64,000 nucleotides of DNA from Allobosea sp. ASV33. GTDB taxonomy: Bacteria > Pseudomonadota > Alphaproteobacteria > Rhizobiales > Beijerinckiaceae. Shown one piece after another: positions 8,067-48,417 of this stretch (positions are counted from its first letter, which is position 1; each line of letters begins with the position of its first letter). The notes below the pieces were generated by a model. The model had not been told where the DNA came from. It saw nothing but the letters and a program-made list of their open reading frames with translations, and ran no database searches. The stretch spans positions 1 through 64,000 of the forward strand of contig NZ_JAELTI010000017.1 of the NCBI RefSeq assembly GCF_016428755.1, read 5' to 3'. Made by a program: the position numbers and the translations under genes.

Positions 8067-8135
8067 GGCCGCCACTCCGCTGCCTGTCCGCTCTTCTGGC
8101 TCCGTTGGCTAACACAGGGCGCTCGCTCGCTCAAG

Positions 8136-8153: not shown

Positions 8154-8216
8154 TTGAAACCGATGTAGTCATTCGGCAGGCGCAAGCTGCGGAGTTGCCG
8201 CGCCGAAGGAGGGCCG

Positions 8217-9623: not shown

Positions 9624-9675
9624 CAGCGCGGAAGCCGCATGCCGTAACGGAGCGGCCGGGAACAGTGGAGCAACG

Positions 9676-10341: not shown

Positions 10342-10625
10342 AGGCCTATTCGGAACACCGGCTTCGCTCCGGAAATCATAGACTTTCGGCTAAGCTCCGA
10401 GCAGCCGGCAAACGCCTCTCCGCCCCAACCGAAATCCGTTCCCGCACAGCCGTTTACCCTTCCCTCGGGGCAGGCTGCGAAGCCCCCCGAGACGACTATC
10501 CGCGCCGGTCTTCTTTCAATAAGCTGTAGACAAGGCAGCCCGGGGACTTTCGCCCCAGGAGCTTCCGATACAACGGGGCCGTTCATCGCCTGACGAGGGC
10601 GGATGAGGCGTTCAAGGAGACATCC

Positions 10626-12218
10626 ATGAAGAAAATTCTGTTGGCGACGCTGTCGGCCTCCGCGCTGATGGCGGCGCAGCCGCTGATGGCGAAGACGCTG
10701 GTGTATTGCTCGGAGGGCAGCCCCGAGAATTTCGCGCCGAGCGTCAACACCACCGGCACGTCCTTCGATGCGAACACCCAGATCTACGACACGATCGTGC
10801 AGTTCGAGCGCGGCGGCACCAAGGTCGAGCCGGCGCTCGCGGAGAAATGGGACATCTCGGCGGATGGCCTGACCTACACCTTCCACCTGCGCAAGAACGT
10901 CAAGTGGCAGTCCAACAAGAACTTCAAGCCGACGCGCAACTTCAATGCCGATGACATCATCTTCATGATCGAGCGGCAGTGGAAGGAAGATCACCCGTTC
11001 TTCAAGGTGACCAGCTCGAACCACTCCTATTTCAACGACATGGGCATGCCCAAGTTGCTGAAGTCGGTCGAGAAGGTCGATGACTACACGGTCAAGATCA
11101 CGCTGAACCAGCCGGAAGCGCCGTTCCTCGCCGACCTCGCCATGCAGTATGCCAGCGTGCAGTCGAAGGAATATGCCGATGCCATGCTGAAGGCGGGTAC
11201 GCCCGAGAAGCTCGACCAGGACCCGGTCGGCACCGGCCCGTTCTCCCTGGTGCAGTACCAGAAGGACGCGATCATCCGCTACAAGGCCAATCCCGACTAC
11301 TGGGCCGGCAAGGCCAAGATCGACGACCTGATCTTCGCGATCACGCCGGACGCCTCGGTGCGCTGGGCCAAGCTCCAGAAGGGCGAATGCCATGTCATGC
11401 CCTATCCGAACCCGGCCGATCTCGAAGCGATCAAGAAGGACGCCAATGTCCAGATCCTGGAGCAGCCCGGTCTGAACATCGGCTATCTCGCCTACAACAC
11501 CACCAAGAAGCCCTTCGACGACGTCAAGGTTCGCCGCGCCGTCAACAAGGCGATCAACAAGAAGGCGATCATCGACGCGGTCTATCTCTCCAGCGGCGTC
11601 GCGGCGACCAATCCGATCCCGCCGTCGATGTGGTCCTATAACGAGACCATCAAGGACGACCCCTACGATCCGGAGGCGGCCAAGAAGGAGCTGGCCGCGG
11701 CCGGCTATCCGAACGGCCTCGAGATCGACCTCTGGGCCATGCCGGTGCAGCGCCCCTACAACCCGAACGCCAAGCGCATCGCCGAATTGATGCAGGCGGA
11801 TCTCGCCAAGGTCGGCGTGAAGGCCGAGATCAAGAGCTTCGAATGGGGCGAGTACCGCAAGCGCATGCAGGCGGGCGAGCACCAGACGGGCATGCTCGGC
11901 TGGACCGGTGACAACGGCGATCCGGACAACTTCCTGCACACGCTGCTGGGCTGCGAGTCCGCCAAGACCAACGGCTCGAACGTCGCCAAGTTCTGCTACC
12001 AGCCGTTCGAGGATTTGGTGGTGAAGGCGAAGACCGTCACCAATCAGGCCGAGCGCGAGAAGCTCTACCGGCAGGCGCAGGTGATCTTCAAGGAGCAGTC
12101 GCCCTGGTTCACCATTGCGCATGCGGTGCAGTTGAAGCCCGTCCGCAAGGAGGTGAAGGACTTCAAGCTCTCGCCGTTCGGCCGCCACACCTTCTACGGC
12201 GTCGATATCGGCAAGTGA
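10626..12218 (+). CDS. Dipeptide/oligopeptide ABC transporter substrate-binding protein, first copy
   Basis: Periplasmic solute-binding protein of the DppA/OppA (SBP_bac_5) family, 530 residues. A signal peptide starts MKKILLATLSA and ends near PLMA (about residue 22). Mature CSEGSPENF and the later DGLTYTFHLRKNVKW and DPVGTGPF segments are family landmarks. AAGGAGA precedes the ATG. It is the first gene of an operon with a second binding protein, an M55 peptidase and dppBCDF-type genes. The DppA-like opening YCSEGSP suggests dipeptides as ligand. Confidence 0.92.
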   Translation: MKKILLATLSASALMAAQPLMAKTLVYCSEGSPENFAPSVNTTGTSFDANTQIYDTIVQFERGGTKVEPALAEKWDISADGLTYTFHLRKNVKWQSNKNFKPTRNFNADDIIFMIERQWKEDHPFFKVTSSNHSYFNDMGMPKLLKSVEKVDDYTVKITLNQPEAPFLADLAMQYASVQSKEYADAMLKAGTPEKLDQDPVGTGPFSLVQYQKDAIIRYKANPDYWAGKAKIDDLIFAITPDASVRWAKLQKGECHVMPYPNPADLEAIKKDANVQILEQPGLNIGYLAYNTTKKPFDDVKVRRAVNKAINKKAIIDAVYLSSGVAATNPIPPSMWSYNETIKDDPYDPEAAKKELAAAGYPNGLEIDLWAMPVQRPYNPNAKRIAELMQADLAKVGVKAEIKSFEWGEYRKRMQAGEHQTGMLGWTGDNGDPDNFLHTLLGCESAKTNGSNVAKFCYQPFEDLVVKAKTVTNQAEREKLYRQAQVIFKEQSPWFTIAHAVQLKPVRKEVKDFKLSPFGRHTFYGVDIGK

Positions 12219-12269
12219 GCCGCGCTACCGGCCGCGCCCCGTCCTGGCGCGGCTGATGCATGCCAAACG

Positions 12270-12292
12270 ACGCGGCCCCGCCGGGGCCGCGT
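12270..12292 (+). terminator. GC-rich hairpin between the two binding-protein genes
   Basis: ACGCGGCCCC (12270-12279) and GGGGCCGCGT (12283-12292) pair perfectly around a GCC loop. No U-run follows, so it is more likely a partial terminator or mRNA stabiliser that raises expression of the first binding protein over downstream genes. Confidence 0.65.
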
Positions 12293-12368
12293 TTCGGGAG
12301 GCGGAGACGATGGGGCACGATGCCCCGCGCCCGATCCGTCTCCCCTGCCTCTCCCGAGAGAATCGCCC

Positions 12369-13985
12369 ATGTCCGTTCGCGCCCGCTCCCTTGCCCTCAC
12401 GCTGGGGCTCAGTGCCCTGATGCTGCCCGCCATCGCCAGCGCCCAGGCGCTCGTGGTCTGCTCAGAGGCCAGCCCCGACTATCTGAACCCGCAATTCAGC
12501 GGCCAGAACACCGCCTATGACGTCGCCGCACAGATCTACGAGCGGCTGACCGCGACGGAACGCGGCGGCTCGCAGATCATCCCGAGCCTAGCCGAGTCCT
12601 GGACGACCTCCGACGACGGGCTGACCTATACGTTCAAGCTGCGCAAGGGCGTGAAATGGCACGCCAGCAAGACCTTCACGCCGACGCGGGACTTCAACGC
12701 CGATGACGTGATCTTCTCGTTCGGGCGCATGTTCGACCCGAGCAACCCATTCAACAAGGTCGGCAGCGGCAATTTCGGCTTCTTCGCCGAGATCGTGCAG
12801 CCGAGCTTCAAGTCGATCGAGAAGGTCGACGACTATACGGTCAAGCTGACTCTGACCAAGCCGAACTCGCCACTGCTCTCAGCGCTTTCGGTCGAGCCGA
12901 TGTCGATCCTCTCGGCCGAATACGCGGCTGCGATGCTGAAGGCGGGCACGCCGGAGCAGATCGATTTCGCGCCGATCGGCACCGGGCCGTTCTCGCTCGT
13001 CTCCTACCAGAAGGACGCCGTCATCCGCTTCAAGGCGGTGCCGGACCACTGGACCAAGGCCGTCGGCAACCGCGACCGCATGGCGCTGGTCAGCGACCTG
13101 ATCTTCGTGATCACGCCCGACGCCGCCGTGCGCTTCGCCAAGGTGCGCTCGGGCGAGTGCCAGATCGCGCGCTATCCCAACCCCGGCGACCTGCCGGCGA
13201 TGAGGACCGAACCAGCGATCAACCTCCTGCAGGGCAGCATCGCCGACCAGAGCTTCCTCGCCTTCAACCAGCAGAAGAAGCCCTTCGGCGACAAGCGGGT
13301 GCGCGAGGCCCTGGCCTATGCGACCAATATCCCGGCGATCATCGACGCGGTCTATCAGGGCACCGGCAAGATCGCGGCAGCGGCGGTGCCGCCCTCGCTC
13401 TGGTCGCATGATGCCGATCTCAAGCCGCGTCCCTACGATCCCGAAAAGGCCAAGGCACTCCTCAAGGAAGCCGGGCTGGAAAACGGCTTCGAGACGACGC
13501 TCTGGGCCATTCCGGTGGTGCGCGCCTATATGCCGAACGGCCGGCGCGCGGCCGAGCTGATCCAGGCGGACTGGGCCAAGATCGGCGTCAAGGCGACGAT
13601 CCAGACCTTCGAATGGGGCGAGTATCTCAAGCGCGGCCGCGCCGGCGACCATGAGGTCGGCATGTTCGGCTATACCTGGGATTATCCCGATCCGAGCCAG
13701 ATCCTGCTCTCAGGCTGGACCTGCGAGGGCGTGAAGAGCGGCGCCAACCGCGCCCGCTGGTGCAACCAGGAGGCTTCCGACGCGCTCGCCAAGGCGAGCA
13801 CCATCACCGACCAGGGCGAGCGTGCGAAGCTCTACAAGCGCTTCCAAGAGCTGTTCCACGAGGATGTGGCGGGCCTGCTCTTCGCCAATGCGCAGGCCTT
13901 CACGCCGGTGCGCAAGGAGGTGAAGGACTACAAGATCCACTTCTTCGGTGGGCAGCCCTTCTACGGCGTCTCGATCGCCAAGTAA
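12369..13985 (+). CDS. Dipeptide/oligopeptide ABC transporter substrate-binding protein, second copy
   Basis: Second SBP_bac_5 protein (538 residues), clearly paralogous to the one before it: CSEASPDYLNPQF, DGLTYTFKLRKGVKWH, APIGTGPFSLVSYQKDAVIR and the C-terminal FTPVRKEVKDYK repeat the same landmarks. A signal peptide runs to about residue 26 (ASAQA). Both proteins presumably feed the same DppBCDF translocator with different ligand preference, since only one permease pair follows. It is separated from the first copy by a strong hairpin. Confidence 0.91.
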   Translation: MSVRARSLALTLGLSALMLPAIASAQALVVCSEASPDYLNPQFSGQNTAYDVAAQIYERLTATERGGSQIIPSLAESWTTSDDGLTYTFKLRKGVKWHASKTFTPTRDFNADDVIFSFGRMFDPSNPFNKVGSGNFGFFAEIVQPSFKSIEKVDDYTVKLTLTKPNSPLLSALSVEPMSILSAEYAAAMLKAGTPEQIDFAPIGTGPFSLVSYQKDAVIRFKAVPDHWTKAVGNRDRMALVSDLIFVITPDAAVRFAKVRSGECQIARYPNPGDLPAMRTEPAINLLQGSIADQSFLAFNQQKKPFGDKRVREALAYATNIPAIIDAVYQGTGKIAAAAVPPSLWSHDADLKPRPYDPEKAKALLKEAGLENGFETTLWAIPVVRAYMPNGRRAAELIQADWAKIGVKATIQTFEWGEYLKRGRAGDHEVGMFGYTWDYPDPSQILLSGWTCEGVKSGANRARWCNQEASDALAKASTITDQGERAKLYKRFQELFHEDVAGLLFANAQAFTPVRKEVKDYKIHFFGGQPFYGVSIAK

Positions 13986-27078: not shown

Positions 27079-27975
27079 ATGACCGCCCCGAACGCTAGCC
27101 GCCCCGCCTATGAGTGGCCCGAAGGCAAGAGCAGCGCCTTCTGCTTCACCATCGATGTCGATGCGGAGAGCCCCTATCAATGGAGCCTACCGGAAAGCGC
27201 GCCGGTCGCGCTCGGCCAGATCGAGCAGCGCCTGTTCGGCCCGCGCGTCGGCATCTGGCGCCTGCTCGACCTGCTCGATCGCTACGGCATCAAGGCGACG
27301 CTGTTCGTGCCGGGGCTCGTCGCGAAGAACCATCCGGAACTGCTGCCGGCCTTCGTCGAGCGCGGCTACGAGATCGGCCTGCACGGCTATTTCCACGAGC
27401 TCGCGACCGAGGCCGGGCCGGAGGAGTTCGCCCGGGCGATGGATGAATCGCTCGCACTGTTCAAGAGCCAGGCGGGCGTCGTGCCCAAGGGCTTCCGCTC
27501 GCCGGCCTGGGAGATGACACCCTTCATGCTGGAGGAGGTGAAGCGGCGCGGGCTCTACGATTCCTCGCTGATGGGCTTCGACCATCCCTATACGATCGAC
27601 GGGGTGACGCAGGTCCCGGTGCTCTGGGCCGTCGACGACGCCGTCTATTTCCGCTTCACCGGCAGCGCGCAGGACCGCGGCCCGCCCTCGGCCCAGAACG
27701 GCATTCTCGACGCCTGGCTCGACGAGTGGGAGGTGCTGCATCGCGAAGGGCGGATGATGATGCTGACCGTCCATGACTGGATTTCCGGCCGAGCCGGGCG
27801 CGTCCGCATGCTGGAGAAGCTGCTCGACGTGGTGACGGCCTCGCCCGGCGTCTGGATCGCGACCGTCGGCGAACTCGCGGCGCATCACGCCGCGAGCGTC
27901 AATGCGCAGCGCTTCAGCGTGCCCCTGCGCCTGCCGCAGCCGAGCGCGCCGCTGCGCTTCCGGGCCAAAGCCTGA
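27079..27975 (+). CDS. Polysaccharide-deacetylase-fold (NodB homology) hydrolase
   Basis: A 298-residue NodB-fold metal hydrolase. The metal site is visible: D26/D28 in TIDVDAE and the H-x3-H pair H102/H106 in LHGYFHE. FRSPAWEM and the C-terminal LTVHDWISGR complete the pattern. This branch includes PuuE allantoinases and cyclic-imide hydrolases as well as HpPgdA-like enzymes, so C-N bond hydrolysis on a small molecule is as likely as glycan deacetylation. There is no signal peptide, so it is cytoplasmic. Its TGA overlaps the GGT start by one base. Confidence 0.83.
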   Translation: MTAPNASRPAYEWPEGKSSAFCFTIDVDAESPYQWSLPESAPVALGQIEQRLFGPRVGIWRLLDLLDRYGIKATLFVPGLVAKNHPELLPAFVERGYEIGLHGYFHELATEAGPEEFARAMDESLALFKSQAGVVPKGFRSPAWEMTPFMLEEVKRRGLYDSSLMGFDHPYTIDGVTQVPVLWAVDDAVYFRFTGSAQDRGPPSAQNGILDAWLDEWEVLHREGRMMMLTVHDWISGRAGRVRMLEKLLDVVTASPGVWIATVGELAAHHAASVNAQRFSVPLRLPQPSAPLRFRAKA

Positions 27976-29519
27976 TGCAGACCTTCAGCATCCGCCGCCC
28001 AGCCGTCCGCTCGCCGCACGGGCTCGTCGCCGCGCAGAACCGCCATGCCGCGGAGGCCGGCGCCGCCGTGCTGGCGCGCGGCGGCAACGCGATGGATGCG
28101 GCGATCGTCACCTCACTGGTGCTGAGCATCGTCGAGCCCTGGCTTTCCGGCGTGGGCGGCGGCGGCTTCCTTGTTCATGCCGATGGCAAGACCGGCGCGC
28201 TCGACACGCTCGACTTCAACGTGCGCGCGCCGCGCGGGCTTGATCCCGCGGATTATCCATTGACCGATGCGGGCTCGGGCAATTGGTTTGCCTGGCCTGC
28301 CGTGGTCGGAGACAGGAATGTCGCCGGCTACAGTGCGATCTGCGTGCCCGGCGCCATCGCCGGCTTCGCCGCCGCGCTGGAGCGCTACGGCACGATCTCG
28401 TGGAGCGAGGCGCTGCAACCGGCGATCGAGCATGCCGAGCGCGGGCTGGAGATCGACTGGTACGCGGCGCTCTGCATCGCGGTCGAGGTCGCGGGACTTT
28501 CGCGCGATCCGGCGATCTCCGCATTGTTGCTCGACAACGGGCAGCCGCCCAAGGCCGGGGCCGATACACGCCGTTTCAAGCCGATGACGGCCAAGGCTGA
28601 GCTGTTGAAACGGCTGGCAAAGGCGGGAGCCTGCGATTTCTACGAGGGCGAAGCGGCACGCCTGATCGCTGGTGATCTCGAAGCGGGCGGCTCGGCGATC
28701 CGCGCCGACGATCTCGCGGGCTATCAGGCGGTGTGGTCGCCGGCCCTGACGGGGCGCTATCGCGATCTCGACATCGCCGCCATTCCCGCTCTCAGCGGCG
28801 GCCCGACCTTCTTCGACGCGGCGCGACGCGTGGAAGCGCGCGGCCTTGGTCGGGGCAGTTCCGAGGCCGATGCGGCTCTGACCTATGCGACGGCGATCCG
28901 CGAGGCCTATGCGGTGAGGCTCAACAGCATGGGCCATGCCGCGACGCCGCAAGCGGGCTGCACCTCGCATGTCAGCGTCGTCGATCGCGACGGCAACATG
29001 GTCTCGCTGACCAACACGCTACTTTCGCGCTTCGGCGCGCGGGTGGCTCTGCCGCAAGCCGGCATCATCATGAATAACGGCATGATGTGGTTCGATCCGC
29101 GCCCCGGCCAGCCTAACAGCATCGCGGCCGGCGCCAAGCCGCTCGCGAACATGTGCCCGCTGGTGCTGAGCCGCGATGGCAAGCCCTGGCTCGCTATCGG
29201 CGCCGCCGGCGGCCGCACGATCTTCCCGACGCTCTTGCAGATGATCTCCGGCGTCGCCGATTTCGGCCTCTCGCTGGAGGACGTCTTCCACCGGCCACGC
29301 ATCGACGCCTCGACCCCACGCATCAAGGTCGACGCCAGGGCGGAGCCGGATGTGGCCGCGCGGATCGCCAGCGCCTTCCCGGTCGAGATCGTCGAGGACA
29401 CGCTCTACCCCGTGAACTTCTCCGTGCCTTCAGCCGTGATGCGGGCGGAGGATGGCGGCTTCCTCGGCATGGCGCATCCGACCAGCCCCTGGGCCGCGGT
29501 CGCGGCAGCGTCCGCATGA
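27975..29519 (+). CDS. Gamma-glutamyltransferase-family hydrolase (cytoplasmic)
   Basis: A 514-residue Ntn-type GGT homologue. The self-cleavage nucleophile is the threonine T330 in CTSHVSVVD (classical TTH). The GVGGGGFLVH segment and the later GIIMNNGMMWFDPRPGQPNS are family motifs that build the glutamate pocket. No signal peptide is present, unlike the periplasmic E. coli enzyme, so it would hydrolyse gamma-glutamyl bonds or similar amides on imported substrates. Cephalosporin acylases belong to the same family. It overlaps both neighbours (NodB and dppD), showing tight coupling. Confidence 0.88.
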   Translation: MQTFSIRRPAVRSPHGLVAAQNRHAAEAGAAVLARGGNAMDAAIVTSLVLSIVEPWLSGVGGGGFLVHADGKTGALDTLDFNVRAPRGLDPADYPLTDAGSGNWFAWPAVVGDRNVAGYSAICVPGAIAGFAAALERYGTISWSEALQPAIEHAERGLEIDWYAALCIAVEVAGLSRDPAISALLLDNGQPPKAGADTRRFKPMTAKAELLKRLAKAGACDFYEGEAARLIAGDLEAGGSAIRADDLAGYQAVWSPALTGRYRDLDIAAIPALSGGPTFFDAARRVEARGLGRGSSEADAALTYATAIREAYAVRLNSMGHAATPQAGCTSHVSVVDRDGNMVSLTNTLLSRFGARVALPQAGIIMNNGMMWFDPRPGQPNSIAAGAKPLANMCPLVLSRDGKPWLAIGAAGGRTIFPTLLQMISGVADFGLSLEDVFHRPRIDASTPRIKVDARAEPDVAARIASAFPVEIVEDTLYPVNFSVPSAVMRAEDGGFLGMAHPTSPWAAVAAASA

Positions 29520-39257: not shown

Positions 39258-39460
39258 GCAGGAAGGGCCGCCTGCCGTGAAGATCACGCGGCGCTGCTTG
39301 CCTTCGGCTGATAGGTCATCGTCCTGACGACGCCCTGCGCAGTGCGTTTCTCGTCAGCGGGCACATCGGCGTATTCTTGATCTCCCCGATTATTCATATT
39401 CCCGGAATGATGCCTTTGATTTAACAATCACACGAAATAAAATTCTTGGGCGGGGAAACG

Positions 39461-39883
39461 ATGCTCAATCAGAATGTCGCGCGAGGCGCCTTCCTCGCTG
39501 CTGTGGCGCTGTTCTTCGCCTCCAACGCAATGCGTTATCCGATCGGCGACTTGGCTCATGCAGGCCCGGGCCTGTTTCCGCTCCTGATCTGCGTGCCGCT
39601 GCTGATCATCGCCGGAGCGATCATCTGGCAGGCGCGTCTCACCGCGCCGGTGCCCCTGCAATTCAACCCGAAGAACATCGTCCTGATCATGGCGAGCCTC
39701 GTCGGCTTCGTGCTCGCTTCGGAATACCTGAACGCGATTGCCGGGATCATCGTCCTGGTCTTCATCGCGGGCTTTGCCGGGACGAGCTATTCCTGGGTCC
39801 GCAACATCAAGATCGCACTCGGGCTCATCGTGGTGGCCTACGTCTTTCAGCGCTTTCTCGGCCTGAACCTGAGGCTGATCTGA
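39461..39883 (+). CDS. tctB: Tripartite tricarboxylate transporter, small subunit TctB (orphan pair)
   Basis: A 140-residue membrane protein with four hydrophobic segments and the TctB motif HAGPGLFPLLI. The ATG at 39461 follows GGGGAAACG; a TTG five codons upstream is less likely. It overlaps tctA by one base (TGATG). No TctC receptor gene lies next to this pair, so a receptor encoded elsewhere must serve it. Upstream, 39258-39460 holds no gene but includes ATTCCCGGAAT (39398-39408) in an AT-rich promoter-like stretch. Confidence 0.88.
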   Translation: MLNQNVARGAFLAAVALFFASNAMRYPIGDLAHAGPGLFPLLICVPLLIIAGAIIWQARLTAPVPLQFNPKNIVLIMASLVGFVLASEYLNAIAGIIVLVFIAGFAGTSYSWVRNIKIALGLIVVAYVFQRFLGLNLRLI

Positions 39884-41397
39884 TGGAAGTCCTCCAGAAC
39901 CTCGCCTTTGGCTTCAGCCACGCCCTCACGCCCGAAAACCTGCTCTACTGCGCCATCGGCTGCGTCGTCGGCACGCTGGTCGGCCTGCTGCCGGGCCTGG
40001 GTCCGCTGGCGACGATCAGCCTTCTCCTGCCGCTGACCTATTCGATCCCAACCGGCGGCGCATTGATCATGCTCGCCGGCATCTACTACGGCGCGCAATA
40101 CGGCGACAGCGTCAGCGCGATCACCATGAAGATCCCGCATGCCTCGAGCATCGTCGCCTGCATCGACGGCTACCAGATGACGCTGAAGGGAAAGACCGGC
40201 CTCGCGCTCTTCACCGCCGGCGTCTCCAGCTTCATCGGCGGCACGGTTGCGATCGTGGTCCTGGCCTCGCTGGCACCGCTGCTGGGCAGCATCGCCCTGA
40301 AATTCGGCCCGACCGATTACTGCGCCCTGATGCTCTTCGGCTTCGTCTGCGTCAGCTTCGTCACCACCGGCAGCCTGCTCAACGGCCTGGCGATGTGCCT
40401 GCTCGGCGTGCTGCTCGGGCAGGTCGGTACCGACCTCGAAACCGGCATGGAGCGCTTCACCATGGGCCTGCCGTCGCTGATCGACGGGGTCAGCCTGGTG
40501 AGCCTGGCGCTCGGCTGCTTCGGTATCGCCGAGATCACCAAGAATCTCGACGCGAAAGAGGAACGCACGCCGTTCAACGGCAAGATCAAGCTGATGCCGA
40601 CCTGGCCGGAGTTCAAGCGCATCATCCCGAGCGCGCTGCGGGGTAGCGTCGTCGGTTCCATCCTCGGCATCCTGCCGGGCGGTGGGCCCGTGATCGCGCA
40701 ATTCGCCGCCTATGGCCTCGACAAGAAGATTAGCAAATACAGGGACGAAATCGGCCAGGGCGCGATCGAGGGCGTCGCCGGCCAGGCCGCAGCCGACGAA
40801 GCGGCGGCGCGGACCAGCTTCATTCCGCTGATGAGCATCGGCATCCCCGAGAACGCCGTCATGGCGCTGATGATGGCGGCCTTCATCATCAAGGGCATCC
40901 AGCCCGGCCCGAACATGATCGCCAAGCACCCGGACCTGTTCTGGGGGCTGGTCGCGAGCATGTGGGTCGGCAACTGCTTCCTGCTCCTGCTCAACGTGCC
41001 GCTGGTCCGGTTCTGGCTCTCGGTCTTCAAGATCCCCTACAACGTGCTGTTCCCGTCGATCCTGTTCTTCTGCTGCGTCGGCACCTTCAGCATCAACAAC
41101 AGCCTGCACGATATCTACACGACGGCGGCTTTCGGCCTGATCGGCTACGTCATGATGCGGCTCGCCTTCGACCCGGCACCGCTGATGCTCGGCTTCATCC
41201 TGGGACCGATGCTCGAAGAGTATTTCAGGCGCTCGATGCTGCTGAGCCGCGGCAGCTTCCTGACTTTCTTCGAGCACCCGATCAGTGCGGTGCTGCTGTC
41301 GCTGCTGATGCTGTTCATCGGCTGGCAGATCTTCACGACGCTGAGAGGCCGAAAAGTCCCGAGCGAGGGCGAGCAGGTGCCGGCTGCGAGCCCATAA
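39883..41397 (+). CDS. tctA: Tripartite tricarboxylate transporter, large subunit TctA (orphan pair)
   Basis: A 504-residue permease with the TctA loops GLLPGLGPLATISLLLP (N-terminal half) and GILPGGGPVIAQFAAY (centre), plus MSIGIPENAVMALMM. It is clearly divergent from the first tctA at 3700-5211. It is coupled to tctB. The next gene, 175 bases downstream, starts a sulfide-dehydrogenase operon, so co-regulation with sulfur genes is possible but unproven. Confidence 0.92.
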   Translation: MEVLQNLAFGFSHALTPENLLYCAIGCVVGTLVGLLPGLGPLATISLLLPLTYSIPTGGALIMLAGIYYGAQYGDSVSAITMKIPHASSIVACIDGYQMTLKGKTGLALFTAGVSSFIGGTVAIVVLASLAPLLGSIALKFGPTDYCALMLFGFVCVSFVTTGSLLNGLAMCLLGVLLGQVGTDLETGMERFTMGLPSLIDGVSLVSLALGCFGIAEITKNLDAKEERTPFNGKIKLMPTWPEFKRIIPSALRGSVVGSILGILPGGGPVIAQFAAYGLDKKISKYRDEIGQGAIEGVAGQAAADEAAARTSFIPLMSIGIPENAVMALMMAAFIIKGIQPGPNMIAKHPDLFWGLVASMWVGNCFLLLLNVPLVRFWLSVFKIPYNVLFPSILFFCCVGTFSINNSLHDIYTTAAFGLIGYVMMRLAFDPAPLMLGFILGPMLEEYFRRSMLLSRGSFLTFFEHPISAVLLSLLMLFIGWQIFTTLRGRKVPSEGEQVPAASP

Positions 41398-41572: not shown

Positions 41573-41959
41573 ATGTCGAAGCAGACCGCCCCCGACTGCA
41601 ACGGTGCGCATGCCGCAGGCACGTATGGCCGGCCGGGCGCATGCCATGGCTTGCGCGTCCCTGCCCTGGCATGCGTAACGCTGATGCTCGGCTGGATGCC
41701 GGCTAAGGCGGCCGGGAACGAGGTGCTCGGGCGCCATCTCTCTGCTGAATGCACAGCCTGCCATCAGCTTTCGGGACAGAGCGTCGGCGGCATTCCCCCC
41801 ATTATCGGCTGGCCGGAAGACCAGTTCGCTGCCGTTCTGGCCTCCTATGGCCGCAAGGAGCGCGGCGGCCAGGTTATGCAGGCCATCACTGCGAAACTCA
41901 GCCCTGACGACATGACGGCGCTCGCCGCCTATTTCGGCGCAGTTTCGCCGAAGCCATGA
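41573..41959 (+). CDS. fccA: Flavocytochrome c sulfide dehydrogenase, cytochrome subunit (FccA/SoxE-like)
   Basis: A 128-residue monohaem c-type cytochrome with C60-T-A-C63-H64 and an N-terminal hydrophobic export signal ending near AKAA. Electrons from sulfide oxidation by the adjacent FccB flavoprotein pass through its haem to the respiratory chain in the periplasm. The exact start is uncertain: the ATG at 41573 lacks a ribosome site, and a TTG at the codon before RVPALACVTL would give a cleaner signal peptide. It lies 17 bases before the FccB start. Confidence 0.8.
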   Translation: MSKQTAPDCNGAHAAGTYGRPGACHGLRVPALACVTLMLGWMPAKAAGNEVLGRHLSAECTACHQLSGQSVGGIPPIIGWPEDQFAAVLASYGRKERGGQVMQAITAKLSPDDMTALAAYFGAVSPKP

Positions 41960-41976
41960 CTGTGCGGAGGCCGCGG

Positions 41977-43254
41977 ATGACACCGACACGTCGTGATCTG
42001 GTTGCTGCCTCGGGGGCCGTTCTAGCCGCCGCGACATTGGGCATGCCTGCGGTCCTCGGCCAAGCAAAAGCCCGCGTGGTCGTGGTCGGCGGCGGGCCGG
42101 GCGGTGCGACCGCCGCCAAATACATCGCCCGCGACGGCGGCGGCAGGATCGCCGTAACCCTCGTCGAGGAACACGAGGTGTATCAAAGCTGCTTTCACTC
42201 CAACCTCTATATCGGCGGCTTCAAGAGCTATGAGCAGCTCCTGCATCGCTACGATGCGCTGACAGCCGCCTACGGCATCACGCTGGCGCGCCAGCGCGCC
42301 GCGCGGATCGAGCGCGACCGAAAGAACGTGGTGCTCGCCGACGGCACGCGCCTTCCGTACGACCGCCTCGTCCTCTCGCCCGGCATCGACCTGAAATACG
42401 ATTCCGTTCCCGGGTGGTCGCAGGATGCCGAGGAAATCATGCCGCATGGCTGGAAGCCGGGCCGGCAGACGCTGCTGATCCGCGAGAAGCTCGATGCCGT
42501 GCCTGATGGCGGAACGATCGTGATGATCGCCCCGCCAAATCCCTATCGCTGCCCGCCGGGCCCCTACGAGCGCGCGTCGATGTTCGCCCATGTCCTCAAG
42601 TCGACGGGCCGCACGAAGGCGCGGGTCGTGATCCTCGATCCAAAGGACAGCTTCTCCAAGCAGGGCGTCTTCATGCCGGATTGGGAGAAGCGCTATGGCA
42701 CGATGATCGAATGGCTCGGTCCGCGGGTGCATGACGGCATCAAATCGGTCGACCCGGCGAAGGGCACTGTCGTCACAGGTTTCGAGACCTACGAGAACTG
42801 CGCCTTCGTCAACGTCATCCCGGCACAGATGGCGGGAGCGGTTGCGCGCGAGGCAGGGCTGGCACCTGCCGGCGGCTACTGCGCCATCGACCCGGCCACG
42901 ATGAAATCGACGGTCGATCCGGCCGTCTTCGTGCTCGGCGATGCCTGCATCGCCGGCGACATGCCTAAATCCGCCTTCTCGGCGAATAACCAGGCCAAGG
43001 TCGCGGCGATGGTCGCGTGCTCCGAACTGGCGGGCGAGCCCGCTTTTCCTGCGCGCTATTTCAACACCTGCTGGAGCCTCGTCGCACCCGACGACGCGAT
43101 CAAAGTGGGCGGTCGCTACGAGCCCAGGGACGGGCGCATCGCCGCAACCGAGACCTTCATCTCGCAGCCGGGCGAAAGCGACGAGGTCCGCCGCCAGACA
43201 CAGGCCGAGAACCTCGCCTGGTACGAGGCGATCAGCGCCGACATCTTCACTTGA
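41977..43254 (+). CDS. fccB: Flavocytochrome c sulfide dehydrogenase, flavoprotein subunit (FccB/SoxF-like)
   Basis: A 425-residue FAD protein that oxidises sulfide to sulfur. A Tat signal (TRRDLVAAS) exports it. The dinucleotide motif is GGGPGG. All three functional cysteines of the family are conserved: C72 in YQSCFHSN (covalent FAD), and C192 in YRCPPGPYERAS with C365 in FNTCWSL (the redox disulfide). VLGDACIAG is the second FAD motif. The ATG at 41977 follows GCGGAGG and is preferred over one at 41956. Confidence 0.9.
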   Translation: MTPTRRDLVAASGAVLAAATLGMPAVLGQAKARVVVVGGGPGGATAAKYIARDGGGRIAVTLVEEHEVYQSCFHSNLYIGGFKSYEQLLHRYDALTAAYGITLARQRAARIERDRKNVVLADGTRLPYDRLVLSPGIDLKYDSVPGWSQDAEEIMPHGWKPGRQTLLIREKLDAVPDGGTIVMIAPPNPYRCPPGPYERASMFAHVLKSTGRTKARVVILDPKDSFSKQGVFMPDWEKRYGTMIEWLGPRVHDGIKSVDPAKGTVVTGFETYENCAFVNVIPAQMAGAVAREAGLAPAGGYCAIDPATMKSTVDPAVFVLGDACIAGDMPKSAFSANNQAKVAAMVACSELAGEPAFPARYFNTCWSLVAPDDAIKVGGRYEPRDGRIAATETFISQPGESDEVRRQTQAENLAWYEAISADIFT

Positions 43255-43331
43255 AAGCCCCGCCATCGCGGCACGCAGCGCAGGGATGCCCGGCCGAGAT
43301 TTTCTCATTATTGGCATTGGAGACGAGACGG

Positions 43332-43727
43332 ATGATGAAGACGATCGCGGCAACCGCCGCCCTGCTTGCTGCGACATGGCTCGGCGCGACATCGGCCAGC
43401 GCCCAGGATGCCGCCGCGGGCGAGAAGTCCTTCGCGAAATGCCGGGCCTGCCATCAGGTCGGCGAAACCGCGAAGAACGTGATCGGGCCGGCCCTGAACG
43501 GGCTTTTCGGGCGCCAGTCCGGCACTGTCGAGGGCTATAGCTATTCGCCGGCCAACAAGAATGCCGGCATCACCTGGGACAATGCCAGCTTCGCCGATTA
43601 CATCAAGGACCCGAAGGCGAAGATGCCGGGCACGAAGATGGTCTTCGCCGGCATCAAGAACGACAAGGAAATCGCCGATCTGGCCGCCTATCTCAAGCAG
43701 TTCGGCGCGGACGGCAAGAAGCTCTAG
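43332..43727 (+). CDS. Class I cytochrome c, periplasmic electron carrier
   Basis: A 131-residue c-type cytochrome with a signal peptide to about residue 24 (SASA) and haem motif C37-R-A-C40-H41. The sixth ligand is probably in AKMPGTKM, as in mitochondrial-type cytochrome c2/c550. It likely carries electrons from FccAB or SoxXA to a terminal oxidase. It ends six bases before the convergent soxA gene, with no terminator evident between them. Confidence 0.88.
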   Translation: MMKTIAATAALLAATWLGATSASAQDAAAGEKSFAKCRACHQVGETAKNVIGPALNGLFGRQSGTVEGYSYSPANKNAGITWDNASFADYIKDPKAKMPGTKMVFAGIKNDKEIADLAAYLKQFGADGKKL

Positions 43728-43733
43728 CCGGGC

Positions 43734-44489
43734 TTAGCGCCTCATGGCGGGCGTCTCGACCGGCAGTCCCTCGGCCCTGCCCGCGAGATAGAGTTCGAGC
43801 GCGAGATATTCGGGCGAGCCGTAGTCGAATTGCGTCGCCCGGACACCCAGCGAGCAGGCCCGCAGCCGGCGGTGCAGCGAGCCGACCGTATTCCATTCCA
43901 GGCGGTAGGCGGGGTAACCCGTGCCGGCGCCGTGACTGATCGTGTCGCCGCGCAGCTTCTGCCCGACCAGCCCGTCATGGCACTGCTTGCAGGAGAGATT
44001 GAGCTGCCCCTGCCGGCGCTCGAAGAAGGCTTGGCCGGCCTCGTAGAAGGGGCGCGCGGGCCCATCGGTCCGCACGCTCATCGGCAGGCCGCGCGAGAGC
44101 GAAGCGACATAGGCCGTGAGCGACAGGAGTTCTGCACTCTCGTAACCGAAAGCGGGCTGCCGCTGACGTTCAACCCGGCACTGCTCGATCCGGCTCTCGA
44201 GATTAAGCAGCTTGCCGCTCGGCCGGTCGACCTGCGGATAGTGCGTCGCAGCGCCGCGCAGGCTCGCCGCCGGATCGGCATGGCAGCCGAGGCAGGCCTG
44301 CCCGGTCGCAGGCTTCTCGGCGAAAAGCTCTTTGCCCTGGTCGACCCAGAACCAGGCCGGATTGCGGTTCGGATCACCCTGCCGGCGCCGCAGTTCCGGT
44401 GACAGGAAGGTGCTGCCGGACGCGATCTCGTCAGCGCTTGCGGGGGCCAGAACGCTCAGCAAGGCGAGAAGGAGGGCGGGAACACGCAA
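43734..44489 (-). CDS. soxA: SoxA, dihaem cytochrome subunit of the SoxAX sulfur-compound ligase
   Basis: A 251-residue c-type cytochrome. SoxAX joins a sulfur substrate to the SoxY cysteine in the periplasm. Two haem motifs are visible, C66-x2-C69-H70 and C167-x2-C170-H171, and the active-site persulfide cysteine is C212 in RACSLGVRA. A signal peptide ends near PASA. The only start in frame after an upstream stop is TTG at 44489. It lies nine bases after soxZ and is the last gene of the iorAB-soxXYZA operon. Confidence 0.9.
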   Translation of the reverse strand: MRVPALLLALLSVLAPASADEIASGSTFLSPELRRRQGDPNRNPAWFWVDQGKELFAEKPATGQACLGCHADPAASLRGAATHYPQVDRPSGKLLNLESRIEQCRVERQRQPAFGYESAELLSLTAYVASLSRGLPMSVRTDGPARPFYEAGQAFFERRQGQLNLSCKQCHDGLVGQKLRGDTISHGAGTGYPAYRLEWNTVGSLHRRLRACSLGVRATQFDYGSPEYLALELYLAGRAEGLPVETPAMRR

Positions 44490-44498
44490 GGCGTTCGC

Positions 44499-44819
44499 TC
44501 AGGCCACCGTCAGGCGCGCCGAGCGCGTATAGGTCGCGCCGCCATCCTCGCGCCATTCGAAAACGATGTCGCCGGTCTCGACCGCGCGTGTCCTGAACGA
44601 GATGAAAGGATTGGCGGCGACCCCGGTATGCATGTCGAAGCGAATGATTTCCGCCCCGGCATAGGTCGCGGTCATGCGGTTCAGGATCTTGCGCGGCACG
44701 ATGCCGCCCTTGCCGTCGGACTGGCCGCCCCGATCCATCGGATGGCGCATCAGCACCTTGATCTCGACGATATCGCCGGCCTTGGCCTGTGGCGGCACGG
44801 TAATGCGGGCGTTGAACAT
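44499..44819 (-). CDS. soxZ: SoxZ, sulfur carrier complex subunit
   Basis: A 106-residue protein with the immunoglobulin-like SoxZ fold: PPQAKAGDIVEIKVLMRHPM at the start and TGDIVFEWREDGG near the end. It lacks a signal peptide, as usual, and is exported as a complex with Tat-dependent SoxY. Its ribosome site GGAGG lies within the end of soxY, coupling the two. Confidence 0.92.
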   Translation of the reverse strand: MFNARITVPPQAKAGDIVEIKVLMRHPMDRGGQSDGKGGIVPRKILNRMTATYAGAEIIRFDMHTGVAANPFISFRTRAVETGDIVFEWREDGGATYTRSARLTVA

Positions 44820-44822
44820 CGC

Positions 44823-45275
44823 TCAGCCTCCGTCGATACAGGCACTCAGCGTCACCACCACCGGCGCCTTGGCGATCGCGTAGCGCCCGTCGCTATGGGC
44901 GACGACGGCGGCCACCGTTTGCGACTGGGCGAGGCGCAAGGTCGTCGCGACCTCCGCCAAGCCAGCGCGCGGCGACAGATGGATGCGCGCCATGTCGGGG
45001 AACGGGTTCCGGTCGGCGATCAGATGGATCCAGCGCACATGCTCGGCCTCGGTCATCGGGCTGTCGACGGCGATGCGGACATCGACGGAATTGCCGTTCT
45101 CGACCAGTGCGGGAATGTCGAGCGTAACGCCGGTTTCGGCCGGGGCCGCCCCATCCGTGACGCGCCGCACGAGTTCATCGAGCGTCTCGTTCTCCGCGGC
45201 GCCGGCCGACGCAGGATAGGCGGTCAGCGCCAGGCCTGCCGCCGCCAGAGCCACCAGATCCCGGCGGCTGGGCAT
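44823..45275 (-). CDS. soxY: SoxY, sulfur carrier protein with atypical C-terminal arm
   Basis: A 150-residue periplasmic protein that carries sulfur intermediates on a C-terminal cysteine. A Tat signal is present (PSRRDLVALAAAG). The only cysteine is C146, and the protein ends SACIDGG instead of the textbook GGCGG arm, so the carrier cysteine sits four residues rather than two from the end. The core (LDIPALVENGNSV) is standard. Its start codon lies directly after the soxX stop. Confidence 0.9.
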   Translation of the reverse strand: MPSRRDLVALAAAGLALTAYPASAGAAENETLDELVRRVTDGAAPAETGVTLDIPALVENGNSVDVRIAVDSPMTEAEHVRWIHLIADRNPFPDMARIHLSPRAGLAEVATTLRLAQSQTVAAVVAHSDGRYAIAKAPVVVTLSACIDGG

Positions 45276-45276
45276 T

Positions 45277-45756
45277 TCATTCCGTCTTGAGTGAGGCAAG
45301 ATAGGAAACGACATCCTCGATCTCCTGTGCCGAGAGCGCAGGCTGGCCGCGATAGGCCGGCGCCACATCTCGCATGTTCTCGATGCGGAAATAGGGCGGC
45401 ATCACCGTTTGCGGATCCAGACGCGACATGTCGACCAACCGCAGACGGATCTGACCCGCTTCGAGCCTTGCTCCCACGCCCTTGAGCGACGGCCCGATCG
45501 AGCCCTGAAAGGGCTCCGACGGATCGTCGCCCTGGTGGCAGATCAGGCAATTGCCGCGCTCGCGATCCCTGACGAGCGCTGCGCCACGCGACGCATCGCC
45601 GATCTTCCCGCCGAGCGCCTCCGGAATGGCGTCGGCGACGATGCGATACGGCTCCAGCGCCAGCGCCGGCGAAGCAGCCATCAGAAGCGCCAGCCCGGCG
45701 GCGCCGGCAACCCTCCAGGGCGAATGGAGGGATGGTGACGACCGAGCCGAGATCAC
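45277..45756 (-). CDS. soxX: SoxX, monohaem cytochrome subunit of SoxAX
   Basis: A 159-residue c-type cytochrome with a signal peptide to about residue 34 (ALAL), haem motif C70-L-I-C73-H74 followed by QGDDPSEPFQG, and a probable methionine ligand in TVMPPYF. It starts with GTG whose last two bases overlap the TGA stop of the upstream molybdoenzyme gene (GTGA), which indicates translational coupling of the two. Confidence 0.88.
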   Translation of the reverse strand: MISARSSPSLHSPWRVAGAAGLALLMAASPALALEPYRIVADAIPEALGGKIGDASRGAALVRDRERGNCLICHQGDDPSEPFQGSIGPSLKGVGARLEAGQIRLRLVDMSRLDPQTVMPPYFRIENMRDVAPAYRGQPALSAQEIEDVVSYLASLKTE

Positions 45757-47936
45757 GCCTTCTTCAGATCGCTATTCTTCAGCGGCAGCGAGCGGATGCG
45801 CTTGCCCGTCGCCGCGAAGATCGCGTTCAGCACCGCGGGCGCCGCCACCGCGATGGTCGGTTCGCCGACGCCGCCCCAGAAGCCGCCGGACGGCACGATC
45901 ACCGTCTCGACCTTCGGCATCGCCTCGAGGCGCATCACCTCGTAGGTGTCGAAGTTCTCCTGCTCGACGCGACCGCCCTTGATCGTGATCTCGCCATAGA
46001 GCGCAGCCGAGAGGCCGTAGACGAAAGAGCCTTCGACCTGTCGCTCGATCTGCGCGGGATTGACGGCGTGGCCGGGATCCGTCGCAGCGACGATGCGGTG
46101 AATGGTGAGCTTACCATCGGCGCTGACGGAGACCTCGGCCACCGCCGCGACGTAGGAACCGAAGCCCATGGTCTGGCAGATGCCGCGGAAGACGCCGTCC
46201 GGAAGGGGCTTGCCCCAGCCGGCCCGCTCCGCCGCCGCATTGAGCACGGCGAGGTGCTTGGGGTGGCTCTTCATCAGCGAGCGGCGGAATTCGAGCGGAT
46301 CCTTGCCCGTCTCATGCGCGATCTCGTCGATGAAGCTCTCCAGATAGACCGTGTTCTGGTTGAGATTGACCCCGCGCCAGAAGCCCGGCGGCACATGCGG
46401 GTTGCGCATGGCATGGTCGATCAGCAGGTTCGGGAACGAATAGCCGATCGAGGCTTCGGGGCCGGGAGCGTTCAGGCCCTGGAAGACGGCCGGGTCACGC
46501 CCGTTCTGGATGGTCTGCGGGAAGATGCCCGCGACGATCGACTGGCCGGAGATGCGCATGTGCAGCCCGGTGACATTGCCGTCCTTGTCGAGCGCCGCCT
46601 TCATCTTGCATTGGGTAATCGGGTGGAAGCGCCCGTGCAGCATGTCCTCCTCGCGCGACCAGATCAGCTTCACCGGCGTGCCGGGGATCTGCTTGGCGAT
46701 CGCGACGACCTGCCGGACCCAGTCATGCACCGCACCGCGCCGGCCGAAGCCGCCGCCGAGGTCGATCTTGTAGGCCTCGCATTTTGCCAGCGGCAGGCCC
46801 GAGGCCTCCGCCGTGGCGGCTAGCGCCGCCTCGCCGTTCTGCGTCGGCGTCCAGACCTCGCATTTCTCCGGGGTGTAGAGCGCCGTCGCGTTCATCACCT
46901 CCATGCAGGCGTGGTTCTGGAACGGGTAGCTGTAGGTCGCCTCATAGACACGCGCCGCGCCGGCCAATGCCGCCTTGGCGTCGCCGTTCTGGTTGCCGAC
47001 CACGGCCTCGGGCGCATCGAGCCCTTCCTTCAGCCAGGCCGCGATGCTTTCGCTGGAAACCTGCGCATGCGGCCCCTCGTCCCATTCGATCGGCAGGGCG
47101 TCGAGAGCGGTCTTGGCCTGCCACCAGGTCTCGGCCACCACCGTAACGGCGCTGTCGCCGACCGACAGGACATGCTTGACGCCCGGCATGCCCTTGACCT
47201 TGGCGGCATCGAAGCTCTTCACCTTGCCGCCGAAGACGGGGCAGTCCTTGATCGCGGCATTGAGCATCCCCGGCAGCTTGAAATCCATGCCGTAGATCTT
47301 CTTGCCGTTGGTCTTGTCGGCCGTGTCGAGCCGCGGCAGCGCCTTGCCGGCGATCGTCCAGTCCTTCGGGTCCTTGAGCGGGACGTCCTTCGGCGCGTCC
47401 AGCTTCGCGGCCGCCGCCGCGACCTCGCCATAGCGGACGGAGCGCCCCGAGGTCTTGTGCGTGATCACGCTCTTCTCGGCGCTGCATTCGGCGGCCGGCA
47501 CCTTCCATTCGTTCGCCGCCGCCTGGATCAGCATCATGCGCGCCGCCGCGCCGCCCTTGCGGACATAATCATGCGACTCGCGGATGCCGCGGCTGCCGCC
47601 GGTCGAGAAATTGCCCCAGACCCGGTTGCGGGCGACGTTCTGGCCCGGCGTCGGGTACTCCGTCGTGACCTTCGCCCAGTCGCAGTTCAGCTCCTCGGCG
47701 ACGAGCTGGGCGAGGCCGGTCAAGGTGCCCTGCCCCATTTCCGAGCGGGCGATACGGATCACCACCTTGTCGTCGGGATGGACGACGACCCAGGCGTTGA
47801 TCTCGGGAACACCGGCCTGCTGCGCCAGAGCCGGGATCGAGAAGCCGAAGCTGAAGACGCCGGCGGCCGCGGCGGAGCCGGCAAGGATATGGCGGCGCGA
47901 GGGACGGAAGTCGCGAGATTGCGTCGAGATGGTCAT
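45753..47936 (-). CDS. Xanthine-oxidase-family molybdopterin-binding subunit (IorB/isoquinoline 1-oxidoreductase beta-like), Tat-exported
   Basis: A 727-residue molybdenum hydroxylase large subunit. A Tat signal (PSRRHILAGSAAAAG, ending about residue 40) places it in the periplasm. Family motifs include GGGFGRRG in the molybdopterin-cytosine-dinucleotide region, WSREEDMLHGRFHP and the active-site glutamate in WGGVGEPTIAV. The branch is used on aldehydes or N-heterocycles and donates electrons to c-type cytochromes. The ATG at 47936 follows GGGGGG. It is cotranscribed with soxXYZA downstream, which is unusual. Confidence 0.85.
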   Translation of the reverse strand: MTISTQSRDFRPSRRHILAGSAAAAGVFSFGFSIPALAQQAGVPEINAWVVVHPDDKVVIRIARSEMGQGTLTGLAQLVAEELNCDWAKVTTEYPTPGQNVARNRVWGNFSTGGSRGIRESHDYVRKGGAAARMMLIQAAANEWKVPAAECSAEKSVITHKTSGRSVRYGEVAAAAAKLDAPKDVPLKDPKDWTIAGKALPRLDTADKTNGKKIYGMDFKLPGMLNAAIKDCPVFGGKVKSFDAAKVKGMPGVKHVLSVGDSAVTVVAETWWQAKTALDALPIEWDEGPHAQVSSESIAAWLKEGLDAPEAVVGNQNGDAKAALAGAARVYEATYSYPFQNHACMEVMNATALYTPEKCEVWTPTQNGEAALAATAEASGLPLAKCEAYKIDLGGGFGRRGAVHDWVRQVVAIAKQIPGTPVKLIWSREEDMLHGRFHPITQCKMKAALDKDGNVTGLHMRISGQSIVAGIFPQTIQNGRDPAVFQGLNAPGPEASIGYSFPNLLIDHAMRNPHVPPGFWRGVNLNQNTVYLESFIDEIAHETGKDPLEFRRSLMKSHPKHLAVLNAAAERAGWGKPLPDGVFRGICQTMGFGSYVAAVAEVSVSADGKLTIHRIVAATDPGHAVNPAQIERQVEGSFVYGLSAALYGEITIKGGRVEQENFDTYEVMRLEAMPKVETVIVPSGGFWGGVGEPTIAVAAPAVLNAIFAATGKRIRSLPLKNSDLKKA

Positions 47937-47949
47937 GATCGATCCCCCC

Positions 47950-48417
47950 TCAACCGCGGCCGAGCTGGCCGCCGGCGGCGACATCGAGGATCGCGGCCTT
48001 GACGCGGACATAGGTGCCGCAGCGGCAGATATTGGTCATCTCGCTGGCGATATCGGCCTCGGTCGGCTTCGGATTGGCCTGCAGCAGCGCCGCCGCGGTC
48101 ATGATCATGCCGCTCTGGCAGAAGCCGCATTGCGGCACGTCATGCTTGATCCAGGCCTGCTGGATCGGATGCGTGCCGTCCGGCGAAAGCCCCTCGATGG
48201 TGACGATCTTCTGGTCTTCCGTCACGGCGCTGACGGGCAAGACGCAGGAGCGCGTGGCGACGCCGTCGATATGAACCGTGCACGCTCCGCACTGAGCGAC
48301 GCCGCAGCCGTATTTCGTGCCCGTAAGGCCGATCTGTTCGCGAATGACCCAGAGCAGAGGCGTGTCGCCGTCGACCGTGACGTCGAGCGCCCGGCCGTTC
48401 ACATTCAGCTTCGTCAC
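47950..48417 (-). CDS. (2Fe-2S) small subunit of xanthine-oxidase-family molybdoenzyme (IorA-like)
   Basis: A 155-residue iron-sulfur subunit with two clusters. The plant-ferredoxin-type site is YGCGVAQCGAC followed by a later cysteine (RSCVLP), and the second is CGFCQSG with CRCGTY. No signal peptide is present, so it is probably exported bound to the Tat-signal-bearing large subunit. First gene of the iorAB-soxXYZA operon; 13 bases separate its stop from the large-subunit start. Confidence 0.9.
   Translation of the reverse strand: MTKLNVNGRALDVTVDGDTPLLWVIREQIGLTGTKYGCGVAQCGACTVHIDGVATRSCVLPVSAVTEDQKIVTIEGLSPDGTHPIQQAWIKHDVPQCGFCQSGMIMTAAALLQANPKPTEADIASEMTNICRCGTYVRVKAAILDVAAGGQLGRG

Follow-up and report, generated by a model that had tools for sequence, protein, structure and literature searches.

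A conserved iorAB-soxXYZA operon in Allobosea sp. ASV33 and its relatives probably points to an undescribed oxidation pathway for organic sulfur compounds

What would SoxXYZA proteins carry in a genome where neither SoxB nor SoxC scores above its profile cut-off, and why should their genes share an operon with a molybdenum enzyme of the xanthine oxidase family? The question is raised by a 64,000-nucleotide stretch of DNA from Allobosea sp. ASV33 (assembly GCF_016428755.1, contig NZ_JAELTI010000017.1, positions 1 to 64,000), hereafter the window, in which the genes iorA-iorB-soxX-soxY-soxZ-soxA form one compact minus-strand operon at 43734-48417. We found that this set of genes is a widespread conserved unit and that its SoxY differs from the SoxY of thiosulfate oxidation in a way that follows the partner enzyme. 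Judged from sequence comparisons, the unit probably points to an undescribed oxidation pathway for organic sulfur compounds. The genes of the operon are, in order of transcription:

47950..48417, minus strand: iorA-like gene for a small [2Fe-2S] subunit with 8 conserved cysteines (Pfam Fer2_2 99.1 bits, Fer2 32.5 bits)
45753..47936, minus strand: iorB-like gene for a xanthine-oxidase-family molybdenum subunit (MoCoBD_1 124.2 bits, MoCoBD_2 114.5 bits; GVGE motif kept)
45277..45756, minus strand: soxX, monohaem cytochrome c (TIGR04485 76.7 bits, cut-off 61)
44823..45275, minus strand: soxY variant, carrier protein with the arm SACIDGG instead of GGCGG (Pfam SoxY 94.9 bits; TIGR04487 153.2 bits, cut-off 172)
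44499..44819, minus strand: soxZ, the SoxY partner (TIGR04490 78.3 bits, cut-off 76)
43734..44489, minus strand: soxA, dihaem cytochrome c with the conserved Cys212 (TIGR04484 207.9 bits, cut-off 110; best Protein Data Bank relative 1h31_A)

Spacing within the operon is tight: iorA and iorB are 13 bases apart (iorB ATG at 47936), iorB and soxX overlap by 4 bases (GTGA, 45753-45756), and 1, 3 and 9 bases separate soxX-soxY, soxY-soxZ and soxZ-soxA, the last gene starting with TTG. The sequence agrees in every point with the original prediction for this locus, which had given the six-gene order on a single strand with these coordinates, gaps of at most 13 bases and the GTGA overlap; its claim that a different molybdenum family occupies the operon is supported by the MoCoBD_1 and MoCoBD_2 domains, both over cut-off, and by the xanthine-oxidase-family fold described below. 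Searches with IorB used a query read from 47942, two codons longer than the form that starts at the ATG.

The same prediction had seen no SoxB or SoxCD in the window and proposed looking for them in the rest of the genome. In whole-genome profile searches, the best SoxB match scored 133.7 bits against a cut-off of 550 and was 5'-nucleotidase-like, and the best SoxC match scored 177.5 bits against a cut-off of 420 (for SoxD, no search was made). That SoxC match was a sulfite-oxidase-family protein that also fell below the SorA and SorT cut-offs. With SoxB and SoxC below cut-off, the genome holds no complete soxB-soxCD set; we note that the assembly consists of 401 contigs and is listed as 99.99% complete, so a small gap is possible. 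A search with TIGR04487, which also catches ordinary SoxY in relatives, found a single SoxY in this genome.

Related genomes with the unit differed in whether they carry SoxB. Within the window's family, SoxB was over its cut-off in 81 of 397 genomes. TIGR04487 was over its cut-off in 83, with SoxB present in 19 of these and below cut-off in 64. Among the 30 tabulated module-bearing genomes of the same genus (window included; G084, a genome of this genus with fccB inside the operon and no SoxB, left out of the table), 17 had SoxB and 13 did not, and 14 of 25 further hand-picked genomes, mostly with the module or a variant of it, had SoxB. SoxC exceeded its cut-off in only one of 20 SoxB-less genomes (G202). 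These counts indicate that the module neither requires nor excludes SoxB. The accessible part of a paper on Bosea sp. WAO likewise reports complete sox sets including soxB in some Bosea (PMC5894208).

The survey of gene order in other genomes that the original prediction had suggested revealed strong conservation. All six genes were present in 135 fetched loci over 6 kb, some places among them having been fetched twice under different locus numbers, and the order was identical and on one strand in 134; in the exception, L156, soxX comes last. The prediction had named as counting against it a complete soxB-soxCD set together with normal thiosulfate growth of an iorB mutant, and a lack of order conservation in relatives; the window genome has no complete set, and the order is conserved. 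A scan of named genomes anchored on IorB gave a similar picture. IorB served as the anchor because the SoxY alignment was too poorly conserved. The scan yielded 584 confirmed candidates, ordered by their similarity to L147, from an alphaproteobacterial metagenome-assembled genome (MAG), and not to the window; among the best 80 of them, soxY lay within 6.5 kb of iorB in 66 and not in 14 (an automated count of 67 and 13 included locus L222, discarded as spurious). Seven of the 14 soxY-less loci end within 2.5 kb of iorB.

Hosts of the module included Bosea, Bradyrhizobium (including strain BTAi1), Microvirga, Methylobacterium, Stella, Belnapia, Siccirubricoccus and Mesorhizobium, as well as the betaproteobacteria Methylibium rhizosphaerae and Noviherbaspirillum aerium, although the titles of several MAGs look unreliable. 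The module is thus a widespread conserved unit of Alphaproteobacteria and some Betaproteobacteria. It was also found, together with a separate soxB, in three genomes of 1.7-2.1 Mb outside the Alphaproteobacteria (G949, G1034, G903). When neighbouring genes were clustered at 97 loci over 9 kb, the only broadly conserved ones were those of the core and, between iorB and fccB, a small cytochrome gene. As a separate observation, environmental MAG contigs titled Bordetella parapertussis (L228, L254, L257, L261, L282) carry iorAB, four of them with soxYZ; these titles are probably wrong.

One difference from thiosulfate Sox lies in SoxY. The window SoxY failed the model for true SoxY (93.9 bits, cut-off 125), and its top-scoring model, TIGR04487, was likewise below cut-off (153.2 against 172). 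This family is named "SoxY-related AACIE arm protein", a name that gives no function, and relatives of the window SoxY pass its cut-off (L185, for example, with 222.1 bits). The window protein shares with the family the position of the arm cysteine and differs in its lower score and in its arm, SACIDGG, which is also not the GGCGG arm of thiosulfate Sox. On a Methylobacterium plasmid with the same neighbouring genes, the NCBI annotation carries the AACIE-arm name, and in Roseomonas marmotae the counterpart is annotated as plain SoxY. The arm cysteine itself was invariant in all 147 aligned sequences.

To count arm types, we dropped reads that lacked a stop codon or were shorter than 60 residues and merged identical ones, which reduced 269 SoxY reads to 210. 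iorB lay within 6.5 kb in 146 of the 210; 145 of these had an arm of the xAC type, with no soxB near any of the 145, and 141 of the 145 had an acidic residue two positions after the arm cysteine. The sole iorB-linked read of another type was the one at L222, a 30%-identical match that we judged spurious. All 22 SoxY reads with soxB nearby ended in GGCGG. Many module loci had been found through the AACIE model (TIGR04487), which favours xAC arms; in loci found by IorB alone, the arm was xAC in 66 of 66, and 57 of those SoxY were new to the earlier loci. Six further IorB-anchored loci were all xAC, and SoxB-anchored loci had GGCGG in 17 of 17 distinct sequences.

Of 34 xAC SoxY with no iorB nearby, 29 occurred only in loci of at most 5.5 kb and one (L298) was a distant SoxY. 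The remaining four were also read in iorB-less stretches of 10 to 19.5 kb (G256, G486, G522, G488), and in the last three of these genomes IorB was found on another contig. For eight GGCGG SoxY, the available sequence within 6.5 kb contained no soxB. Where one genome carried both clusters and both SoxY were read, each cluster kept its own SoxY type in five of five cases (G207, G301, G375, G074, G036). The type of the SoxY carrier arm therefore follows the partner enzyme, xAC with IorB and GGCGG with SoxB, and the molybdenum family singled out in the original prediction is tied to a changed SoxY.

The Sox cytochromes of the module keep the residues expected of them. SoxX, SoxA and also SoxZ pass their NCBIfam cut-offs, and SoxX and SoxA correspond to SoxXA cytochromes with the haem motifs and the cysteine kept. 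In SoxX, the haem Cys-Cys-His and Met119 were invariant in 136 sequences. Both haem motifs of SoxA and its Cys212, which we take to be the reactive ligand, were present in 136 of 136. Compared with the Sox thiosulfate system, then, the module has homologous SoxXA and SoxYZ with their reactive cysteines, whereas the window genome has no SoxB or SoxC over cut-off, a SoxY arm other than GGCGG and a xanthine-oxidase-family member in the operon.

IorA and IorB were the best-conserved parts of the module. Taking the best local match at each of 81-116 loci, the median identity to the window proteins was 69% for IorB and 66% for IorA, compared with 49%, 43%, 42% and 46% for SoxX, SoxY, SoxZ and SoxA and 43% for FccB. 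IorA consists of the domains Fer2 and Fer2_2, and all 8 cysteines were invariant in 136 aligned sequences from loci with iorB and soxY. IorB begins with a twin-arginine leader (SRRHILAG, recognised by eye), and E694 of its GxGE motif (729-residue numbering), presumably the active-site glutamate, was invariant in a 37-sequence alignment. An AlphaFold2 model of IorB (mean predicted local distance difference test score 84.1) has a fold of the xanthine oxidase family, in which hydroxylation of carbon is typical; the model bears on the fold and not on the substrate. Its closest solved relative was 8gy3_C (Z 42.8, root-mean-square deviation 2.4 over 671 residues). This chain, from the Gluconobacter oxydans membrane-bound aldehyde dehydrogenase, in which it is the large subunit, also matched IorB by sequence with 387.8 bits. 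IorB resembles this enzyme over nearly the full length of the fold and in the GxGE motif, and IorA is a 2Fe-2S partner; the differences are an identity of 28% and an operon shared with SoxXYZA and, in many cases, FccAB.

A quickly built tree of 116 IorB sequences, without contig-end or short rows and with most of the nearly identical Bosea and Bradyrhizobium entries removed, placed 107 rows in one clade, 94 with adjacent sox genes and 13 without. Four of the 13 formed one basal clade and the others were scattered. The sox-linkage label required 10 changes on this tree, compared with 18.8 in shuffles. Long branches near the root leave the origin of the link between iorB and sox unsure.

A further enzyme is frequently associated with the module. 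In the window, three plus-strand genes at 41573-43727 point toward the sox operon:

41573..41959, plus strand: small monohaem cytochrome c, a possible haem partner of FccB, convergent with the operon (Pfam Cytochrom_C 24.8 bits)
41956..43254, plus strand: fccB (soxF-like), flavoprotein of flavocytochrome-c sulfide dehydrogenase, convergent (FCSD_central 144.6 bits, FCSD-flav_bind 74.8 bits; 5n1t_A 349.3 bits)
43344..43727, plus strand: cytochrome c550 CycA-like, a possible electron carrier, convergent (NF043008 182.1 bits, below its cut-off of 240)

The window FccB is like known FccAB and SoxF in its match to 5n1t_A and in its kept cysteines, and differs in that its gene lies in, or converges on, the iorAB-sox operon. 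Cys199 and Cys372, which we take from their offset in the 5n1t_A alignment to be the known redox pair, were present in 88 of 88 aligned sequences. Many other genera have fccB within the operon, flanked by iorB and soxX and often preceded by a small cytochrome gene, and several relatives have a cytochrome c550-like gene beside fccB. Within the window's genus, fccB adjoined the module in 10 of the 13 genomes that lack SoxB, compared with 1 of the 17 that have it (Fisher p = 9e-5, for related genomes that are not independent). All five soxB loci fetched from this genus had their own fccB with the same two cytochrome neighbours, which suggests that the module can draw on an FccAB encoded either beside it or elsewhere in the genome.

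How might these proteins work together? We propose, tentatively, that iorAB-(fccAB)-soxXYZA is a self-contained periplasmic module for the oxidation of organic thiols, distinct from thiosulfate Sox. SoxXA would load the C-terminal cysteine of the modified-arm SoxY with a reduced sulfur compound, and the conserved cysteines of SoxA and SoxY argue for such covalent loading. IorAB, a [2Fe-2S]/molybdenum hydroxylase predicted to be exported by the twin-arginine route, would then oxidise the load on the SoxY arm. The substrate would most likely be an organic thiol, in which the carbon next to the sulfur is hydroxylated to give an aldehyde or acid together with a persulfide or sulfide. FccAB would oxidise the released sulfur and pass the electrons to c-type cytochromes. 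SoxB and SoxCD would be dispensable because no sulfonate is cut off. We infer the contact between IorAB and SoxYZ, the organic-sulfur substrate, the cleavage of the carbon-sulfur bond and the role of FccAB from the combination of features: an organic thiol best fits the lack of SoxB and SoxC over cut-off, the molybdenum hydroxylase, the frequent sulfide dehydrogenase and, as far as the accessible account goes, the weak expression of a similar cluster on thiosulfate in Starkeya novella (below). The most specific version, in which thiols are tethered to the special SoxYZ as mixed disulfides and the molybdenum hydroxylase cuts the carbon-sulfur bond on the carrier, we regard as somewhat doubtful. 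If it were true, a molybdenum hydroxylase would act on a substrate held by a protein whose swinging arm is adapted to this reaction. The original prediction, also made from sequence, was broader: the enzyme would hydroxylate an organosulfur or heterocyclic compound, or the SoxY adduct, with SoxXA and SoxYZ carrying the sulfur, and this idea is plausible.

Such a cluster has been noted once before. The available text of a study of S. novella describes a second cluster, soxX2Y2Z2A2F2, in an operon with a two-gene xanthine-oxidase-family molybdenum enzyme (Snov_1975-1982) and with no SoxB or SoxCD (PMC3797975). By that description it resembles the window in having soxXYZA, a soxF-like gene and the two-gene enzyme. 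The same text reports that SoxAX and SoxYZ of this cluster were undetected in proteomes under any condition tested, that only one subunit of the SoxF-like flavocytochrome was seen, at a low level and not on glucose, and that cells on glucose, methanol or thiosulfate had very low transcript levels for it (PMC3797975). Its authors suggested that the cluster has no functional significance in that species or acts under other conditions (PMC3797975). To this account of one species, without an assigned function in the text available, our results add that the module is widely conserved, that SoxY arm type goes with it and that it does not depend on SoxB. Searches of the open-access literature yielded no functional account of the module, and earlier descriptions may exist elsewhere.

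A second comparison is offered by SAR324, for which the accessible text of one paper places a flavocytochrome c gene between those of SoxY and SoxZ, with no further sox subunits recovered, and suggests a novel mechanism (PMC4782131). By its description, that arrangement is similar to ours, but an isoquinoline 1-oxidoreductase is reported there separately from the fcc-soxYZ cluster (PMC4782131). We also considered a Bradyrhizobium soxA Tn5 mutant that forms more nodules, described in the part of its report available (PMC7324677), as a possible phenotype of the module. Its soxA is given as 867 bp and no printed start of 23 Bradyrhizobium module soxA genes yields this length, so the mutation is probably in another soxA, and we set this candidate aside.

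Several observations weigh against organic-thiol oxidation by a self-contained module. G462, a one-contig genome with a listed completeness of 100%, carries iorAB-soxXA, yet SoxY was not matched anywhere in it. Conversely, iorAB-soxYZ occurred with no soxXA found nearby in L225, L254, L257, L261 and L275 (two of these loci end soon after soxZ), and L153 has iorAB-soxYZA and no soxX. In G256 (L079, 5316-6747), an xAC soxY is accompanied by soxZ and soxA, with neither soxX nor iorB in 16.5 kb. Seven of the best 80 of 584 named loci lacked sox genes despite at least 4 kb of sequence beyond iorB, and 62-69%-identical IorB relatives on plasmids of Methylosinus trichosporium OB3b, Sinorhizobium meliloti and Agrobacterium tumefaciens had no sox genes; these adjoin other c-type cytochromes, and two also adjoin XdhC and a nucleotidyltransferase. 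Across all genera, 58 of 145 module loci showed no fccB within 9 kb; among the 122 loci with 4.5 kb or more of sequence on either side, 44 showed none. The nearest solved relative of IorB is an aldehyde dehydrogenase. Finally, although low expression on thiosulfate would be expected if thiosulfate were not the substrate, the silence of the S. novella cluster, as far as its published description could be followed, favours organic sulfur no more than any other candidate substrate. The departing loci indicate that IorAB and these Sox proteins are not tied together in every case.

Some neighbourhoods of these loci were recorded in their own right. The iorAB-soxXA genes of G462, with no soxYZ, lie at 8283-12416 of L144. 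In L261 (7403-13018), iorAB-soxYZ is followed by genes that we recognised by eye as a TctC-like binding protein and a TauD-like dioxygenase. In L180 (plasmid pOB3b1 of OB3b, 4131-12643), the IorB relative stands beside an annotated multiheme cytochrome c, an arylsulfatase, XdhC and a nucleotidyltransferase.

The loci without soxXA, the SoxY-less G462 and the sox-less IorB relatives leave room for a plainer activity, in which IorAB would oxidise aldehydes or heterocycles in the periplasm with only indirect help from the Sox proteins, and no sulfur compound is oxidised. SoxXA and small cytochromes might accept its electrons, or the SoxYZ cysteine might trap an aldehyde as a hemithioacetal. The close structural and sequence match to the Gluconobacter enzyme, the IorB relatives beside other c-type cytochromes and the retention of iorAB-soxXA without SoxY in G462 all agree with this, as does the existence of SoxYZ-like carriers named for quinoprotein dehydrogenases (NCBIfam TIGR04557). 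However, an oxidase of this kind would leave unexplained why SoxA Cys212 and the SoxY arm cysteine are kept in every aligned sequence, why a sulfide dehydrogenase gene is frequent in the operon and why some loci have iorAB-soxYZ with no soxXA. We consider it rather unlikely.

A shortened thiosulfate or sulfide pathway, in which IorAB replaces SoxCD and oxidises inorganic sulfane sulfur bound to SoxY, appears a little less likely still. It would suit the reactive residues kept in SoxXA, SoxYZ and FccB, and it gives the molybdenum enzyme the place of the missing enzymes in a window genome whose SoxB and SoxC matches are below cut-off. The carbon hydroxylation typical of the xanthine oxidase family speaks against it, and we know of no route to the release of sulfate without SoxB. 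Moreover, many genomes keep the module although they also have a soxB cluster, and expression of the S. novella cluster on thiosulfate was very low in the available account (PMC3797975). That the genes are a relic or an isoenzyme set without a function of their own, as was suggested for S. novella, is very improbable: the undetected SoxAX and SoxYZ, the very low transcripts on glucose, methanol and thiosulfate and the single, scarce subunit of the SoxF-like flavocytochrome described there (PMC3797975) would agree with it, but order is kept in 134 of 135 loci, cofactor-binding residues and reactive cysteines are invariant, and the module is retained in three genomes of 1.7-2.1 Mb.

The module bears on how sox genes are interpreted. 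Genome surveys in which soxXYZA is taken as a sign of thiosulfate oxidation may go wrong where a genome holds only this module, and the SoxY arm type together with the neighbouring gene (iorB or soxB) separates the module from thiosulfate Sox. Its presence in Bosea, Bradyrhizobium, Methylobacterium, Microvirga and others means that its substrate could be relevant to how soil and plant-associated bacteria turn over sulfur. The module also offers a case in which the coupling of a molybdenum hydroxylase to a carrier protein can be tested.

Two further features of the window lie outside the operon. Genes resembling tctB and tctA (39446-41397) adjoin the sulfide dehydrogenase genes, with a TctC receptor gene far upstream (5913-7004). 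Among module loci over 12 kb, a tctA match was found in only 1 of 133 (L153, outside the filter of this count, also has one), so the proximity of Tct genes to the module in the window is probably accidental, and we rejected this link. A gene for a gamma-glutamyltranspeptidase (27975-29519, Pfam 312.7 bits) lies about 12 kb from the sulfide dehydrogenase genes and may indicate a link to glutathione.

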